Origin: Hyalella azteca
Taxonomy: Eukaryota; Arthropoda; Malacostraca; Amphipoda; Hyalellidae
DNA length: 64,000 bases
Assembly: GCF_000764305.2 (NCBI RefSeq)
Contig: NW_025945902.1
Location: forward strand, 124,001-188,000
Direction of reading: 5' to 3'
This document shows positions 2,895-64,000 of the stretch, piece after piece. A model generated the notes under the pieces. The model worked only from the letters and a program-made list of their open reading frames with translations. It was not told the DNA's origin and did not search any database. Position numbers and translations under genes: made by a program. Numbering within the stretch: position 1 is the first letter of the stretch; the number at the start of each line of letters is the position of its first letter.

Positions 2895-4029
2895 AAACTG
2901 TGGTTATGGGATCGCTAGTATACCTACTCATAAGTGTTCAATTATTAATATACTTCAATTAGTCTTCAATTTTGTTGACGAATAATGTGTGTCTTTTTAC
3001 AGTTTACAGGCAGTTTTAAACTAACAAATGTGATGACAATTATTTTCGAGTAACCCAAAAAAATTAAATAAAAATGAGCAGAACATTTATCCGATGAAGC
3101 GCAAACATCGCTTTTCGTTGGTAAAATATCGGATTCTCAAAAGAGGGCCCATCATTAGAGAACACGGCAATTTAATACGAAAACGCTGATTGGAGTCGTC
3201 AGTTTATTCTATGTTGAAAAGATTCTGAAGTTTCAATGCCGAGCGTCATCTTGTAGAAAGTTAGGTCTAAGGCAGCACAGCCTCTCTTGTTGACGTTGCT
3301 TGCTTAGACAACAAGATTTGTTTTCTTTCATCTTCTTGCGTGCAAAAAGATGCGGGCTCGGCAATCACAATTTTTCCCTGTAAGGAGTTTTGGCGGCTTG
3401 GTTGAATGAACTTTATGAGGCTCCGGAGGATGAGTGTGCGGGAGAGTTCCAGGCAAGTGGAGCGCTATTGGAACCACGCATGAAAGCCCCGTCCAGACTC
3501 AGCTGTCGTGTGAGCTAAATTTGGATCTATAAGATCTTTGAGGTTTGTATTCTGAAAACATTGAGTGCGCATTGCAAAAAAATAATGCCTGAAGATGAGT
3601 CCTGAGCCTAATTGTTTTCTCGATGACGGACATTTTTTTAAATCCTCTGTATTTTATGAGAGTGCCTCATTTTCTTTGAAAGTCAAGTAAAAAGAAACCT
3701 GCTACACATCATTCCACGATTCTTTATAAATGAAGACTAATCATCGAACACAAACAAATCAAAAGCAAATCAAAATTAGCACAGGAAAGAATAAAAATGA
3801 GCGTAAAACTATTCATAACCATTTTATTGAAATTAGAATTTCAGTGGAATATTCCCCCACTAGTCGATAATTATACTTTATGTGCAGCATTTCACCTCGC
3901 GGAACACGAGCGATTGGTCAATCAAGATATAATATTAGTGGTGACTTGTCTTGTCGGATACGGCAGCAGAGTCATCAGAAGTATAAATAGCGACTCATCA
4001 TGCTGTGGACAGATAATCGTGGATTGATG
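2895..4029. other. No gene seen; probable GABA-B-R2 intron
   Basis: AT-rich sequence. A small open frame on the plus strand near 3797-4027 has no recognisable features. The last part grades into the decayed edge of the 50-bp minisatellite. Confidence 0.5.
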
Positions 4030-4573
4030 TTAGGAATAACCCACCTGTCAGAAACGGTGGGTCGGTCACGAGATGATGTTAAGAGAGACACACTTTGCCA
4101 GAAATGGTGGGTTGCCGACTGGTTGCCGGACACGGTGGGTCGGTTATGGAATGATGTATAGGGAGGAACTCTCCTTACCGGACACTTTGAGTCGGTCAAG
4201 GGACGATGTTGGAAGTGATGCACCTTTCCAGACACGGTGGGTCGGTCATGGGACGATGTTGGAAGTGACTCACCTTGCCGGACACTGTGGGTCGGTCATG
4301 GGGCGATGTTGGAAGTGACTCACCTTGCCGTACACGGTGGGTCGGTCATGGGGCGATGTTGGAAGTGACTCACCTTGCCGGACACGGTGGGTTGGTCAAG
4401 GGACGATGATAAATGTGACTCACCTTGCCGGACACGGTGGGTTGGTCAAGGGACGATGATAAATGTGACTCACCTTGCCGGACACGGTGGGTTGGTCAAG
4501 ACACGATGATAAATGTGACTCACCTTGCCGGATACGGTGGGTTGGTCATGGGACGATGTTAAAAGTGACTCAC
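4030..4573 (-). repeat. 50-bp minisatellite built from an exon end plus its splice donor
   Basis: About ten to eleven 50-bp units continue without a gap from the coding exon into the intron. Each unit holds about 34 nt of the exon end and 16 nt of intron, including AAG|GTGAGT. Intact GTGAGT hexamers, seen as ACTCAC on the plus strand, start at 4268, 4318, 4368, 4418, 4468, 4518 and 4568. The last of these is the true donor. The unit near 4218 has a decayed donor (GTGCAT), and those below about 4200 are increasingly diverged, so the array looks older at its far end. Open frames across it on either strand are by-products of the repeat. Confidence 0.95.
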
Positions 4574-4794
4574 CTTGCCGGATACGGTAGGTCGGTCGTG
4601 GGACGATATGGGTAAGAGGTCAGTCATGATGCAACCCTCGAGGGCAGCCATGATCTCCTCAACGGCACACTTGCCCTCGGTGTCGTTGGGCAGACTCTGG
4701 TGACCGCCAGGATTGACGGTAGTCTCGTGCGTCTCCCTCTCCTGCGGTCCGTGAACTTCTTCGTCCAAAGCCCACCACTCCTCTCGGTACATTC
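4574..4794 (-). CDS. GABA-B-R2: GABA-B-R2 exon: end of the ligand domain, splice donor duplicated
   Basis: This exon has 221 nt, enters in phase 1 and leaves in phase 0. The acceptor is tttcctgcgccag. The donor is GGCAAG|GTGAGT at 4574/4573. The peptide starts MYREEWWALDEEV and ends with KCAVEEIMAALEGCIMTDLL followed by PISSHDRPTVSGK. The CxVEEI..ALEG..(M/L)xDLLP stretch identifies it. About 25 residues between EEWW and CAVEE look longer than in the Drosophila protein as I remember it. The last 34 nt plus 16 nt of intron are the founding unit of the 50-bp minisatellite just below. Reading through the donor adds only VSHF and then meets TAA, so the first donor must be used to make full-length receptor. 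Confidence 0.92.
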
Positions 4795-7700: not shown

Positions 7701-8054
7701 ACCATGTCATCTGTACATTTTAATATTGAGGCACTCTTCTAATTAAATTTCAGAGAGTTTGGCGGCAAGACCTCGAGCTCAATTTAATCTGAAGCAAAGG
7801 CTTGCATGTGCAGATATCATCAGAACAAGAGAAGCTGGTTGGTGTCCCGCCTTAAGTTGCTCCTTAGTTTTAGATCTAATTTTAACTTCCAGTGCCGCCC
7901 CTATTTTGAGCAAGTGCATCTCTCATACGATGCAAATTTATCACCAAAATTGCATCGTTCATGTCTATATGAGAACGAGCTCAGAACGAGACTGCAAGTT
8001 AAATTTGCAGTCGTGAACCTGATGAGCGGTGAGGTGGCTACTTCTTTAGGTACC
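4795..8054. other. GABA-B-R2 intron, first part
   Basis: Non-coding by position. A GC-richer patch at 5680-5830 has an open plus frame with no known motif. Degenerate tandem repeats occupy 5905-6085. Nothing else is recognisable. Confidence 0.6.
5905..6085. repeat. Degenerate tandem repeat, unit about 45 bp, four copies
   Basis: The copies share the pattern taaactaaaattt followed by gatgaactctcgtt, with heavy divergence between units. Confidence 0.55.
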
Positions 8055-8222
8055 AAGGACTACTACACACAGGACATGCATAGCCTATGTCCAGCCTCTG
8101 CTAGCAGAGGCGATCGCCTACACTATGAAAATGCTGTTGTTTTAGTGGCATCAACAAATGATATGCCCATAATTGTTTCATACAATAGTATTACAATACA
8201 AGGACTACTACACACATTGTAA
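7806..8222 (+). other. Unclassified open frame running into a hairpin arm
   Basis: This frame has 138 codons, one of the longest in the window, lying antisense to the receptor gene within its intron. The middle reads CRPYFEQVHLSYDANLSPK and later RLQVKFAVVNLMSGEVATS. Its last third, from about TKDYYTQDMHSLCPAS, is the left arm of the inverted repeat 8055-8358, which it crosses without a stop. The residue composition looks more like protein than chance, but I recognise no family. It could be a fragment of a host gene, a transposon or an old viral insertion whose end was duplicated as a hairpin. It has no clear promoter or start. Confidence 0.3.
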
Positions 8223-8358
8223 TACTATTGTATGAAACAATTATGGGCATATCATTTGTTGATGCCACTAAAACACCAGCATTTTCATAGTGTAGGCGAT
8301 CGCCTCTGCTAGCAGAGGCTGGACATAGGCTATGCATGTCCTGTGTGTAGTAGTCCTT
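8055..8358. repeat. Near-perfect 143-bp inverted repeat with an 18-nt loop
   Basis: The left arm is 8055-8197 and the right arm 8216-8358. They match as reverse complements with a single mismatch (ctgttg against ctggtg). The loop, 8198-8215, contains a copy of the arm's own first 16 bases (aaggactactacacac). The arm also holds the smaller palindrome gcctctgctagcagaggc. As RNA it would fold into a long duplex of hairpin-siRNA precursor size. It lies in the 7.3-kb intron of GABA-B-R2, so it would be transcribed with that gene. Confidence 0.95.
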
Positions 8359-10532
8359 GTTAGGTACTTAAATTCCAGAGGCTCACTTTTATTTCTAGCA
8401 CTTTTTTGTGGGGGTACTCGTAAATCAGATTGAGAGGGGAATTAGGAGGAAGAAAGGTATTAGGTTCAACAAAAAACGATTATGCTTAGTTGATAGAGTT
8501 CTTGTATTCAGTAGCTGGGATCCGATGAGAATTTATTATTTTTCATTGCACTATTCGTGATCTGACTATTGTCAAATTCTCGTACATGGATCAAAAACAT
8601 GCCACTTTTTAAAATTTTACATTACGCTTATATTCCGTATTGTCTAAAAGTCCTATTGTCTTACGCTTATATTTCGTATTGTCTATCGTCTAAAGGTCAA
8701 GACTCTCAGTTGGCAATTAAATTCAATAAGAGAATTGACTTGAAATCCTGAGCCGCCTCACCCGAAGCAAAATAAACGAAAATAGAGTTTCTGCAACATG
8801 AAGCCTTTCCTACAGACTGTTGCGGTTCTGCATGGCAATACTAATATAGGGGCGAGAACAATTGCGTTTGACCCAATACATCGACCAATTACCACACTAC
8901 AGCAACAATAGTATATTGACAAATTCGATAGAAGCCAATGCTCCCAAGAATTTTGATTATCTCGTGGTGCTCCTTTGTACATATTTTTAGCCCTACCTAA
9001 CTTCCACCGCTACCAATCTCTTCTACTCTCTTATATTCTATCAATTATACAAACATCAATTTTCACTCACAATCATAGCCACTATCTTTTCAAAGAACGA
9101 ACCAGTAAGAATTGTGAGTTCTTCATTCTTTTCTCTTTATCACTCTCACCCATTCTCCTCATTTAGGATCCTCTCCAAAATCTGCTATCTTTATCTCTCT
9201 TTCATATCGCAGTTCATTGACAAGTTCTCGGCAGTTTTGTTTACACCTCTTCTCATTCATGTCTACTCTTAAGTATTATGTCATTCATATATTTAAATCG
9301 CAATTTCAATAAAAATTTGAAGGTAATTAAAACTTTAGGGAAATCCACCATTTATTTCCAGAAAACATTTCGGACTCAATCGTCAGTTTGAACATTCTAG
9401 AATTTCGAAATGACGATGGAGCTGGACTCCGAAACGTTTTCTATAAACTGTGGTAAATTTCTGTGTGTTTAGCATTCTATCGTTTACTCTCCTCTCATTC
9501 TACGTGTCTTCTCTCCAGCATTCGCACATGCCACACATACTCACACATATTACTCACATACACACATGCCACACACATTAATACCTTGTAGCTCTCTCCG
9601 CACCGTTGTACATCTATTTATTTTTTAGAATGAACATTTTTCATACCGCAAATTGAAACGCCAGTGTTTTTTTTCGATTCTTGTATGCACCAAATCAAGT
9701 TGTGTCACATCACTTTATTATATCATTCCCTCCACATTTCCCTAATTTTTTTTATTCAAATTGCAATTTTATTCCTCGAAACGAGTCAATTTGAACATTC
9801 AAGCTATTTTTTACGTCCTCCTCTTACGTTCTCACTCTCTCAATTCAGTTACCACATATTTTGGTCCATTTTTGTTAATTAACACACACCCAAAACATTC
9901 AGATCCGCTGTGTGTATGTATTTACTATATATGGTCTACGTACGCGAATTATTCTTTTAACATAGTAGAATCTAATAAACAAAACAGCGTATTTTAGTAA
10001 ACAACGTAACAGCGTAAAAACACGTAAAGTTTTTATATGTTTTACAATGCAATTAGCGTGCGCCAACATGTCATTCATTTGTTATTCAGCAGCTGTAGCT
10101 AGGTATATTTCTGTGCAGAACAGTTGGGATGTTTAAAATCATGTGTTTCACGTCACACTTTCTTCATGGCTTAATCAAAATGTCACACTAAAATCAGCCT
10201 AGCTACATTCAGGTTAATTACCAGGCCACTATCGAACACTAAAGATTCAAAATCTAATATTCTTAATAAGTACCTCACCAACTATAGCCATATATATTTA
10301 CACAATTGACCATTTTTGCCACCATTATTCGTTACAGGCGAACAAGCGTCTTTTACGTTGCCGTCCGTTAGAAGAGATGTTTCTTTCCTCACTGGAAAAT
10401 GCTTCGAGAATAATACTTGATTACTGACATACCTAATGTAAATCTTGCCCAAATTTCAAGTGAGTACAAGATGACAGTATATAATGTTATTGTTATTAGA
10501 TGATGCAATGTAATGTAATGTTATTAGATGAT
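8359..10532. other. GABA-B-R2 intron, pyrimidine-rich and CA-rich stretches
   Basis: From about 8990 to 9900 the plus strand is strongly biased to T and C, with CA-rich microsatellite at 9515-9580. The small open frames there reflect this bias. No exon or element was recognised. Confidence 0.5.
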
Positions 10533-12073: not shown

Positions 12074-12293
12074 CTGTTATAATCCACTGGTAGTTCTTGC
12101 CGTACATTTTCTTCCTGTAAGCTTCACAAAATATCCTCCTGGCCCAATCTTCATCGAAATTTCCCAATATAATTCGAACGTCTTTCTCGATAAGTTTGTT
12201 CAGTTGATCTTTCAATTCGTCGGCAAACGATTGAGCCTCTGCGATTTCATATCCGTCCATGTTATCCAATAAACTCAGCAGGTGATTGTGCGA
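12074..12293 (-). CDS. GABA-B-R2: GABA-B-R2 exon: second lobe of the ligand domain
   Basis: This exon has 220 nt, enters in phase 0 and leaves in phase 1. The acceptor is ttctcctctatttgcag and the donor ATAACAG|GTGAGA. The peptide runs SHNHLLSLLDNMDGYEIAEA, then QSFADELKDQLNKL, then IEKDVRIILGNFDEDWARR, then IFCEAYRKKMYGKNYQWIIT. The QSFAD and EKDVRIILGNF motifs are strongly conserved in insect R2 subunits. The final G joins GA from the next exon to make a glycine codon, giving QWIITGMYREEWW across the junction, as expected for this family. It is a complete internal exon with no frameshift or stop. Confidence 0.95.
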
Positions 12294-14091: not shown

Positions 14092-14259
14092 CAGCGCATG
14101 CCGAGGTTTGTTCTGATAGAGCGTGCCGATCCTCGTCCAGTTGAAGGTTCGCAGTAGCTGCAGGCGTGGCAGATTGAACTCGTTCTCCGACGGGGCCATC
14201 CTGAAGAAGTTCGGATACTTCACGGCCGAGAACATCGGGTGCGTGTCCGCGTACGACAA
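14092..14259 (-). CDS. GABA-B-R2: GABA-B-R2 exon: hinge and second lobe of the ligand domain
   Basis: This exon has 168 nt (56 codons) and is phase 0 at both ends. The acceptor is ttttccggcag and the donor GCGCTG|GTGAGG. The peptide reads LSYADTHPMFSAVKYPNFFR, then MAPSENEFNLPRLQLL, then RTFNWTRIGTLYQNKPRHAL. The LSYADTHP and YPNFFR..PSE motifs are hallmarks of GABA-B R2 ligand domains. NWT is a possible N-glycosylation site. Base composition is more GC-rich than the flanking introns, as expected of coding sequence. The overlapping frames on both strands are shadows. Confidence 0.95.
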
Positions 14260-16097: not shown

Positions 16098-16235
16098 CTG
16101 AGTGATGCGCCAGTGCTTGGAGGCTTTAGCGATGGGATCAGTGACGTGTGTGCACGCCGCGCCGAAGAGCATCACCTTCACGGGCTCCTTGAACATCAGG
16201 TCGAAAAACGCCTTCGTCGCAATTGCCGTGTTGCA
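16098..16235 (-). CDS. GABA-B-R2: GABA-B-R2 exon: ligand-domain core with conserved cysteines
   Basis: This exon has 138 nt (46 codons) and is phase 0 at both ends, so skipping it would keep the reading frame. The acceptor is a run of pyrimidines ending in cttttttttcag. The donor is CTCAG|GTAATT, the only non-GTGAG donor among the five. The peptide begins CNTAIATKAFFDLMF and continues VKVMLFGAACTHVTDP, then IAKASKHWRITQ. The two cysteines are at positions typical of the disulfide in lobe 1 of this family. It follows directly on WNDTE of the exon before, as in other GABA-B subunits. Inverted copies of a 145-bp MITE lie in the introns on either side. Confidence 0.95.
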
Positions 16236-26240: not shown

Positions 26241-26375
26241 CTCTGTATCATTCCACACCACATGGAGTTTGTAGTTCCTGAGGATGGTTGGGTGATCGTT
26301 AACGTGCTTCACGCCCAGATCGAGAGCCGGCATCACTCCGCGCCCCAAATCGGACTTCTCTGTCCCGGGTTCCAT
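26241..26375 (-). CDS. GABA-B-R2: GABA-B-R2 exon: N-terminal lobe of the ligand-binding domain
   Basis: This exon has 135 nt (45 codons) and is phase 0 at both ends. The acceptor is a pyrimidine tract ending in ttcttttgcag before ATGGAACC. The donor is CAGAG|GTGAGA. The peptide contains GRGVMPALDLGVKHVNDHP and LRNYKLHVVWNDTE, which match the first strands and helix of the Venus-flytrap domain. NDT is a possible N-glycosylation site. The exon happens to begin with ATG, but the strong acceptor in front of it and the missing signal peptide argue for an internal exon, with the start codon upstream beyond what I could find. The plus-strand frame over this exon is an antisense shadow. Confidence 0.92.
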
Positions 26376-41216: not shown

Positions 41217-41582
41217 CACGAGACCATTATTGAGGGAGTGGAGGCACGAGACCATTATTGAGGGAGTGGAGGCACGAGACCATCATTGAGGGAGTGGAGG
41301 CACGAGACCATCATTGAGGGAGTGGAGGCACGAGACCATCATTGAGGGAGTGGAGGCACGAGACCATCATTGAGGGAGTGGAGGCACGAGACCATCTTTG
41401 AGGGAGTGGAGGCATGAGACCATCATTGAGGGAATGGAGGCACGAGACAATTATTGAGTGAATGGAGGCACGAGACAATTATTGAGGGAGTGGAGGCACG
41501 AGACCATCATTGAGAGAGTGGAGGCACGGGACCATTATTGAGGGAGTGGAGGCATGAGACCATTATTGAGGGAGTGGAGGCA
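41217..41582. repeat. 28-bp minisatellite, 13 copies
   Basis: Unit cacgagaccatcattgaggg plus agtggagg. Units are highly similar; the main variants are catgag, attattg and gggaatgg. Confidence 0.96.
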
Positions 41583-61769: not shown

Positions 61770-62505
61770 TTAGTCACACTCACTCAGTCATTCACTCACT
61801 CAGTCATTCACTCACTAAGTCATTCATTCATTCACTCAGTCATCCACTCACTCACTCAGGCATTCACTCACTCAGTCATTCGCTCACTCTGTCTTTCACT
61901 CAGTCATTCACTCACTCATTCATTCACTCACTCAGTCATTCACTAACTCAGTCATTCACTCACTCAATCATTCACTCACTCAGTCATTCACTCACTAAGT
62001 CATTCACTCACTCAGTGATTCACTCACTCACTCAATCATTCAATCACTCAGTCATTCACTCACTCGGTCATTCACTCATTCACTTACTCAGTCACTCACT
62101 CTGACTTTCACTCAATCAGTCATTCACTCACTCAAACACTCACTCTGTTGTTCACTCAGTCACTCACTCAGTCAGGTGGGTGAGTGACTTATCACTCACT
62201 CACTAATTTACTCAATCACTCACTCACTCGCTCAGTCAGTCATGCACTCAAGTCAGTCACTAACTTTTTCACTCACTCTGTCTGTCACTCACTCAGCCAG
62301 TCACTCACTCAGTCAGTCATTTACTAAGCCAGTCACTCACTCATTCACTTTCTGTCACTCACTCAGTCATACACTCAGTCAGTCACTCACTCTTTCACTC
62401 ACTCAGTCAGTCATTCACTCAGCCAGTCACTCACTCATTTACTCTCTCAGTCACTCACTCAGTCGTTCACTCATTCATTCACACAGTCAGTCACTCACTC
62501 TAGAT
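61770..62505. repeat. Degenerate tetranucleotide array (cact/cagt/catt), about 740 bp
   Basis: Long run of cactcactcagtcattcact and variants, all built on a four-base period of the form (t/c)cac-tcan. The His/Ser/Thr-rich open frames come from the repeat and are not proteins. One inverted piece (gtgggtgagtgact) occurs near 62176. Confidence 0.95.
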
Positions 62506-62798: not shown

Positions 62799-63789
62799 GA
62801 TTGCCTAGAGGGACCTTCAACTGATTATTATCACATAGAGGAGAAGAAAATATAAAAGGTACCGACGATAATTTAACAGATTGCCTAGAGGGACCTTGAA
62901 CTGATTATTATCACAAGGAGGAGAAGAAAATATAAAAGGTACCGACGATAATTTAACAGATTGCCTAGAGGGACCTTGAACTGATTATTATCGCAAGGAG
63001 GAGAAGAAAATATAAAAGGTGCCGACGATAATTTAACAGATTGCCTAGAGGGACCTTCAACTGATTATTATCGCAAGGAGGAGAAGAAAATATAAAAGGT
63101 GCCGACGATAATTTAACAGATTGCCTAGAGGGACCTTCAACTGATTATTATCGCAAGGAGGAGAAGAAAATATAAAAGGTGCCGACGATAATTTAACAGA
63201 TTGCCTAGAGGGACCTTCAACTGATTATTATCGCAAGGAGGAGAAGAAAATATAAAAGGTGCCGACGATAATTTAACAGATTGCCTAGAGGGACCTTCAA
63301 CTGATTATTATCGCAAGGAGGAGAAGAAAATATAAAAGGCGCCGACGATAATTTAACAGATTGCCTAGAGGGACCTTCAACTGATTATTATCGCAAGGAG
63401 GAGAAGAAAATAAAAAAAGCGCCGACGATAATTTAACAGATTGCCTAGAGGGACCTTGAACTGATTATTATCACAAGAAGGAGAAGAAAATAAAAAAGGT
63501 GATGACGATAATTTAAACAGAAGATAATTTAAACAGATTGTCTAGAGGGACCTTGAACTGATTATTATCAAAAGCAGGAGAAGAAAATATAAAAGGAGCC
63601 GACGATAATATAAACAGAAGATAATTTGAACTGATTGTCTAGAGGGACCTTGAACTGATTATCATCACAAGGAGGAGAAGAAAATATAAAAGGCGCTTAC
63701 TATGTACTAACAGAAGATAATTTAAACAGATTGCCTAGAGGGATCTTGAACTGATTATTATCACAAGGAGAAGAAAAAATAAAAAAGAC
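62799..63789. repeat. 80-bp satellite, about 12 units
   Basis: Units start with gattgcctagagggacctt and continue with gaactgattattatcacaag, gaggagaagaaaatataaaa and ggtaccgacgataatttaac. The first eight are almost identical at exactly 80 bp. Those after about 63500 carry insertions (aacagaagataattt) and more changes, so the array is older or less homogenised on the right. Confidence 0.97.
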
Positions 63790-64000
63790 GCTGAAAACAG
63801 ACGATGATGTAAAATTAGACGCATCAAATAATATTGGTGATACATTTAATTGTCTTTCGTTCCTAGGAACATTGAAAATTTACAGTATTATTGAATGAAA
63901 AGCTGGCAACGATCAACGACAGCGTCAGCAATTTCATCAGAAAATATCTCTCTGCATGAAAAATTCACAGTAGTTTTGAAGGAAAAATCAGATAAACATT
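63790..64000. other. Window end, no feature seen
   Basis: AT-rich unique sequence. Confidence 0.4.

Follow-up and report, generated by a model that had tools for sequence, protein, structure and literature searches.

Five exons homologous to GABA-B-R2 lie collinearly on the minus strand of the window, which is the whole 64-kb stretch of DNA analysed in the present study, and the last of these exons runs into a tandem array of 5' splice sites. The exons were placed by tblastn using human GABBR2 and the decapod GABA-B-R2 proteins P0002 and P0003 as queries. In the splice-site motifs below, a slash marks the exon-intron boundary.

26241-26375, minus strand: GABA-B-R2 exon A (ligand-binding region), placed by tblastn, with an acceptor and the donor GAG/GTGAGA
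16098-16235, minus strand: GABA-B-R2 exon B, placed by tblastn
14092-14259, minus strand: GABA-B-R2 exon C, placed by tblastn
12074-12293, minus strand: GABA-B-R2 exon D, placed by tblastn
4574-4794, minus strand: GABA-B-R2 exon E, 221 nt, the final 34 nt of which form the exonic half of array copy 1

Exons A to D share 68-76% identity with the R2 proteins of Scylla and Macrobrachium, and identity is lower (46-53%) in exon E. When the joined translation (294 aa) was searched against a protein database, three decapod proteins came out on top with 69-70% identity among the 120 of 193 matches listed. In the same 120 matches, insects with near-full coverage mostly showed 53-58% identity, krill and a low-quality Penaeus entry each showed 56%, and a second Penaeus entry showed 70% across 81% of the query. 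By homology, the gene is GABA-B-R2, nearest to the decapod proteins. A preliminary description of this DNA had given it the same name, which the exon order on one strand and the homology to R2 proteins support.

Exon E alone matched no family in a Pfam search. Against solved structures, it matched GABA-B-R2 chains, with a best E value of 0.00053. Within exon E, a linker (4640-4794) joins the MYREEWW motif to the conserved CAVEEIM block; this linker is long in the compared decapods, slightly longer here, and short in most of the compared insects.

The intron 5' of exon E is 7.3 kb. The next exon was searched for leftward from exon E up to the edge of the window, and none was found; the intron 3' of exon E is therefore at least 4.5 kb, and later GABA-B-R2 exons, with the 7-transmembrane domain, would sit past this edge.

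Structure of the array

The array was detected by TRF at 4123-4607 with a period of 50, 9.7 copies, 88% matches, and 0% indels. It begins inside exon E and extends into the intron. Comparisons of the copies showed that the 50-bp unit consists of 34 nt of the exon E end and 16 nt of the intron start, the same split as previously described. A search with the unit gave 12 placements from 4607 to 4039, the outer four of which were partial and decayed.

4558-4607, minus strand: array copy 1, with exon at 4607-4574, intron at 4573-4558, and donor 1 at 4574/4573
4559-4561, minus strand: in-frame TAA ending the read-through after VSHF; among copies 1-8, present in copy 1 only
4258-4557, minus strand: copies 2-7, each with AAG/GTGAGT, the last base before GT being 4524, 4474, 4424, 4374, 4324, and 4274
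4208-4257, minus strand: copy 8, with the damaged donor AAG/GTGCAT
4039-4207, minus strand: decayed outer copies (four partial placements), the outermost with CAG/GTGGGT at 4045/4044

The donor of copy 9 is also damaged (AAG/GAGAGT). Good donors among the 12 placements are thus the seven AAG/GTGAGT sites and the CAG/GTGGGT site at 4045. The 64-kb window contains seven copies of the sequence AAGGTGAGT, all on the minus strand and in exact 50-bp steps from 4568-4576 down to 4268-4276, and none of them falls outside the array. This exact count agrees with the seven identical donors at 50-bp steps reported earlier. Shuffled controls (n=100) contained AAGGTGAGT 0.35 times on average and twice at most. 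Since the sequence is absent from the rest of the window, a chance origin of the seven donors was rejected.

Outside its own locus, the array had no further copy in the window (search at E up to 1), and the three other matches, of 10-12 nt, had E values of 0.28 or worse. RNA of the array was not predicted to fold with any excess structure over shuffled sequences (z-score 0.71; 80 of 100 shuffles folded at least as well).

Origin of the array and its first donor

In decapod homologues, exon E ends with TVSGK, preceded in several by SS, and both fall inside the unit. The compared decapods continue after TVSGK with NIS or NIT; the exception is a partial Petrolisthes entry (P0195), which reads TVSGR and then SPSQ. 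In the window, coding similarity ends after the K, at 4574, and the donor comes next.

The exon end was also examined in 219 proteins collected from three protein searches, one of which listed 120 of 193 matches and one of which was queried with exons A-E plus VSHF and gave 100 proteins. Among the matches listed, a hand-written exon-end motif was present in 154 of the 219 proteins, and 29 of these 154 end within 25 residues of the motif. In 27 of the 29, again among the matches listed, the protein reads on into V...: 26 read GIV... and P0001 reads KVGL, while P0181 stops at the junction and P0188 continues in a coding-like manner. A reading of V... is expected from translation into an intron that starts with GT, which supports the exon boundary. 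The 29 early-ending proteins, which may be genomic fragments or intron-retaining transcripts, lend support to this boundary rather than to a truncated isoform.

Judging from these homologues, the boundary at 4574/4573 is old and homologous, and donor 1 is the ancestral donor. The earlier placement of the true donor at 4574/4573 matches this boundary. Because the ancestral residues (TVSGK and SS) lie within the unit, the exon is the source of the array and not the reverse; an exon-derived array had been suggested previously. One record of viral_contigs (L001) matched an 18-base pattern taken from the unit; it gave no blastn alignment to the window, and the match was taken as chance. Scanning viral_contigs with the Scylla receptor gave no match.

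Consequences of using later donors

Translation past 4574/4573 gives VSHF followed by TAA, as the preliminary description had noted. All later donors would truncate the protein because each includes the TAA of copy 1; the claim that any later donor is truncating is upheld in every case. The intron part of copies 2 to 8 reads VSHIYH, VSHFQH, or VHHFQH, without TAA. Each successive donor adds 50 nt, such that the reading frame is kept with donors 4 and 7 and changed with donors 2, 3, 5, and 6. Exon E is 221 nt long with donor 1 and 271 to 521 nt long with donors 2-7. With donor 2, the TAA is 35 nt upstream of the exon junction; with donors 3-7, this distance is 85 to 285 nt.

The end of exon E corresponds to residue 327 of the Scylla protein, in which the ANF_receptor domain spans 54-421 and the 7-transmembrane domain spans 477-739. 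The truncated product would thus retain about three quarters of the binding domain and none of the membrane helices. In the receptor heterodimer, R1, and not R2, is the GABA-binding subunit. A functional soluble ligand-binding receptor, which had been offered as one outcome, is unlikely because the stop falls inside the ANF_receptor domain and R2 does not bind GABA. Decay of an mRNA made with a later donor appears likelier than a soluble receptor. None of the 219 proteins, among the matches listed, ends in VSHF; the source species is seemingly missing from the database.

Relations among the copies

Copies 1-7 differ pairwise by 2 to 10 of 50 bases, with no exact duplicates. Adjacent copies differ by a mean of 3.9 bases; the mean increases to 5.8, 7.4, and 8.8 at lags of 2, 3, and 4, and levels at 8.5 to 9.0 beyond. 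Short tandem arrays are prone to misassembly, and a repeat that was collapsed, expanded, or misjoined in the assembly would be a trivial explanation. However, all eight inner copies differ in sequence, and the greatest likeness is between neighbours, unlike simple assembly stutter. We regard an assembly artefact as very improbable.

Variation among copies 1-7 is confined to 14 of the 50 columns, all of them outside the nine donor columns; the sequence is identical from -7 to +9 at all seven donors. When copies 1-7 are treated as independent, though they are related by duplication, the nine donor columns would be invariant by chance with p 0.038, and an invariant run of at least 16 would arise with p 0.030. 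This invariance is a weak hint of selection on the extra donors. Copy 8 differs from copy 7 at six positions, two of which are within the donor.

The changes in the exon-like part of the non-coding copies include the replacements S to P, R to Q, S to Y, S to C, and H to L. The changes of copy 1 itself in its exon part are silent, and it encodes the same peptide as copy 8. Although the numbers are small, silent changes in copy 1 with replacements elsewhere are expected if coding is limited to copy 1.

The donor invariance bears on the possibility that the array has been kept because donors 2-7 are unproductive, with donor competition and copy number setting the amount of full-length R2. The identity of the seven donors and the same early stop from every later donor agree with such a role. 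However, the donors of copies 8 and 9 have been lost, the p values (about 0.03) count related copies as independent, and the window is rich in arrays. We consider this role unlikely. In its extended form, the share of transcripts diverted to the decayed form would rise with the number of copies, and repeat-length variation would tune inhibitory signalling between individuals; we regard this extension as quite doubtful.

The abundance of arrays was quantified with TRF (score of at least 100 and period of at least 10, with manual merging of overlapping rows). Fourteen arrays were counted, which occupy 4,501 bp, or 7% of the window. At least one of the ten exon edges fell inside an array in 45% of 100,000 random rotations; two of the edges were misplaced by 1 to 3 bases, with negligible effect. 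An array overlapping some exon edge is unremarkable in this array-rich window, and the unit includes a donor because the array starts at an exon edge.

Predicted pairing with U1 and acceptor-like features

Predicted pairing to the 5' end of U1 is -10.7 kcal/mol at the seven identical donors and -11.4 kcal/mol at the outermost CAG/GTGGGT, which is the strongest value on the minus strand; the donors of exons A-D range from -8.1 to -11.1 kcal/mol. The minus-strand stretch from 12072 to 12 has 663 GT sites, of which 13 have a predicted U1 pairing equal to or stronger than that of the donor of exon C; nine of these 13, including the donor of exon E itself, are within the array. These donors may hold several U1 snRNPs that, without being spliced, suppress premature polyadenylation in the long intron. 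The length of the following intron (at least 4.5 kb) and the AATAAA/ATTAAA hexamers downstream of the array, the nearest at 3828, are in keeping with this proposal. However, A+T-rich introns should contain such hexamers by chance, and we attach a very low probability to this proposal.

Each of copies 1-7 contains AG/GT, such that AAG/GTGAGT may serve as both an acceptor and a donor. The array would then be removed in 50-nt steps by recursive (ratchet) splicing or intron sliding, with each step remaking the exon end and its donor. However, by a crude measure of composition (17 nt before the last three), the array sites have a pyrimidine fraction of 0.53-0.59 with U of 0.12, and the five real acceptors of the gene have a pyrimidine fraction of 0.71-0.76 with U of 0.41-0.65. 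Furthermore, the array has AAG where all five real acceptors have CAG. On the same crude measure, the pyrimidine tract is poorer than those of the gene's own acceptors, and the sites were rejected as recursive splice sites. We consider stepwise removal of the array to be extremely unlikely.

A probable junction-seeded minisatellite

We consider it probable that the array is a near-neutral minisatellite seeded at the exon-intron junction, mostly a by-product of repeat growth, with a small leak to the later donors. A tandem duplication of the junction at exon E would have seeded the minisatellite, which may then have grown outward from the exon into the intron. Since the unit combines 34 exonic and 16 intronic nt, each duplication would also copy the 5' splice site. 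Copy 1 would be held by selection on the protein; rounds of local duplication or conversion may keep the inner copies alike, and those further out have decayed. Growth of the array would be neutral. The loss of the donors of copies 8 and 9, the likeness of neighbouring copies, and the frequency of arrays in the window support this neutral reading. The invariant donor columns and the strong donor kept by the outermost, otherwise decayed copy count against it.

Donor 1 is most likely the donor used for productive mRNA. Its use leaves the shortest exon (221 nt) flanked by long introns, and it is the first of the donors to be transcribed, both of which would favour it. Conservation of the protein and the intact appearance of the five exons also suggest that donor 1 would dominate. 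Occasional use of donors 2-7 would introduce the stop after VSHF and probably lead to nonsense-mediated decay. As the copies share the donor and its surroundings, donor choice should hinge mainly on the distance to the acceptor, the order of transcription, and any intron-proximal bias.

Comparison with known systems

A minisatellite with a 12-nt unit, starting near the end of exon 2, is present in the human IFI6 (6-16) gene; because of this unit length, extra units add whole codons. It is the subject of a paper by Turri et al. (1995), as the title of that paper states. A further report states that two downstream units serve as donors, giving rise to three mRNAs (PMC4526556). In IFI6 and GABA-B-R2 alike, minisatellite units carry multiple splice donors. 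In contrast to IFI6, the GABA-B-R2 unit is 50 nt, a stop lies just past donor 1, and every later donor truncates the protein. Moreover, the use of later donors has been reported for IFI6, whereas it is a prediction for the GABA-B-R2 array. By its anatomy, the array is of the IFI6 kind, and IFI6 is the closest known case; among the records listed by our literature searches, no other array of splice donors was seen.

In intron 4 of DOK7, two donors 11 nt apart compete for U1, and one choice results in a frameshifted, truncated protein; the intron-proximal donor is preferred and is also the stronger (PMC5585400). The GABA-B-R2 array resembles this case in its close donors and in a truncated protein as one outcome. 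However, DOK7 has two unequal sites, and the array has seven identical donors in tandem. Given the preference in DOK7, a downstream copy could be favoured here, although the preferred donor is also the stronger one there.

In Drosophila, the tandem duplication of AG/GT proto-splice sites has been proposed as a route to new introns (PMC2891723). A duplicated AG/GT segment multiplies splice signals in both cases. However, the Drosophila proposal concerns coding duplications that become introns, whereas an existing donor has been multiplied into an intron here, and the acceptors of the array look weak.

With this array, the IFI6 kind would gain an instance from a distant animal. The array also offers a natural experiment on how a 5' splice site is chosen. 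The nine donor bases do not vary among the seven sites, and their 50-nt surroundings are similar; the main differences are in the distance to the acceptor and the order of transcription. The outcome of donor choice is readable because donor 1 alone avoids the stop. Donor usage could discriminate between exon-length, first-transcribed, and intron-proximal rules in an arthropod gene with long introns.

Other repeats in the window

An 80-bp tandem array at 62799-63794 (9 copies, 97% matches) runs into a related array with a 97-bp period. In the open frames left by a long imperfect CACT-based repeat at 61777-62500, histidine, serine, and leucine are abundant; such frames are no evidence of a gene. 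A 28-bp tandem array (13 copies, 94% matches) was found at 41217-41582. In the intron between exons D and E, 8051-8197 and 8216-8362 form an inverted repeat with 147-nt arms that are 99% complementary and spaced by 18 nt. It could fold into a long hairpin in the pre-mRNA or represent a recent palindromic mobile element.
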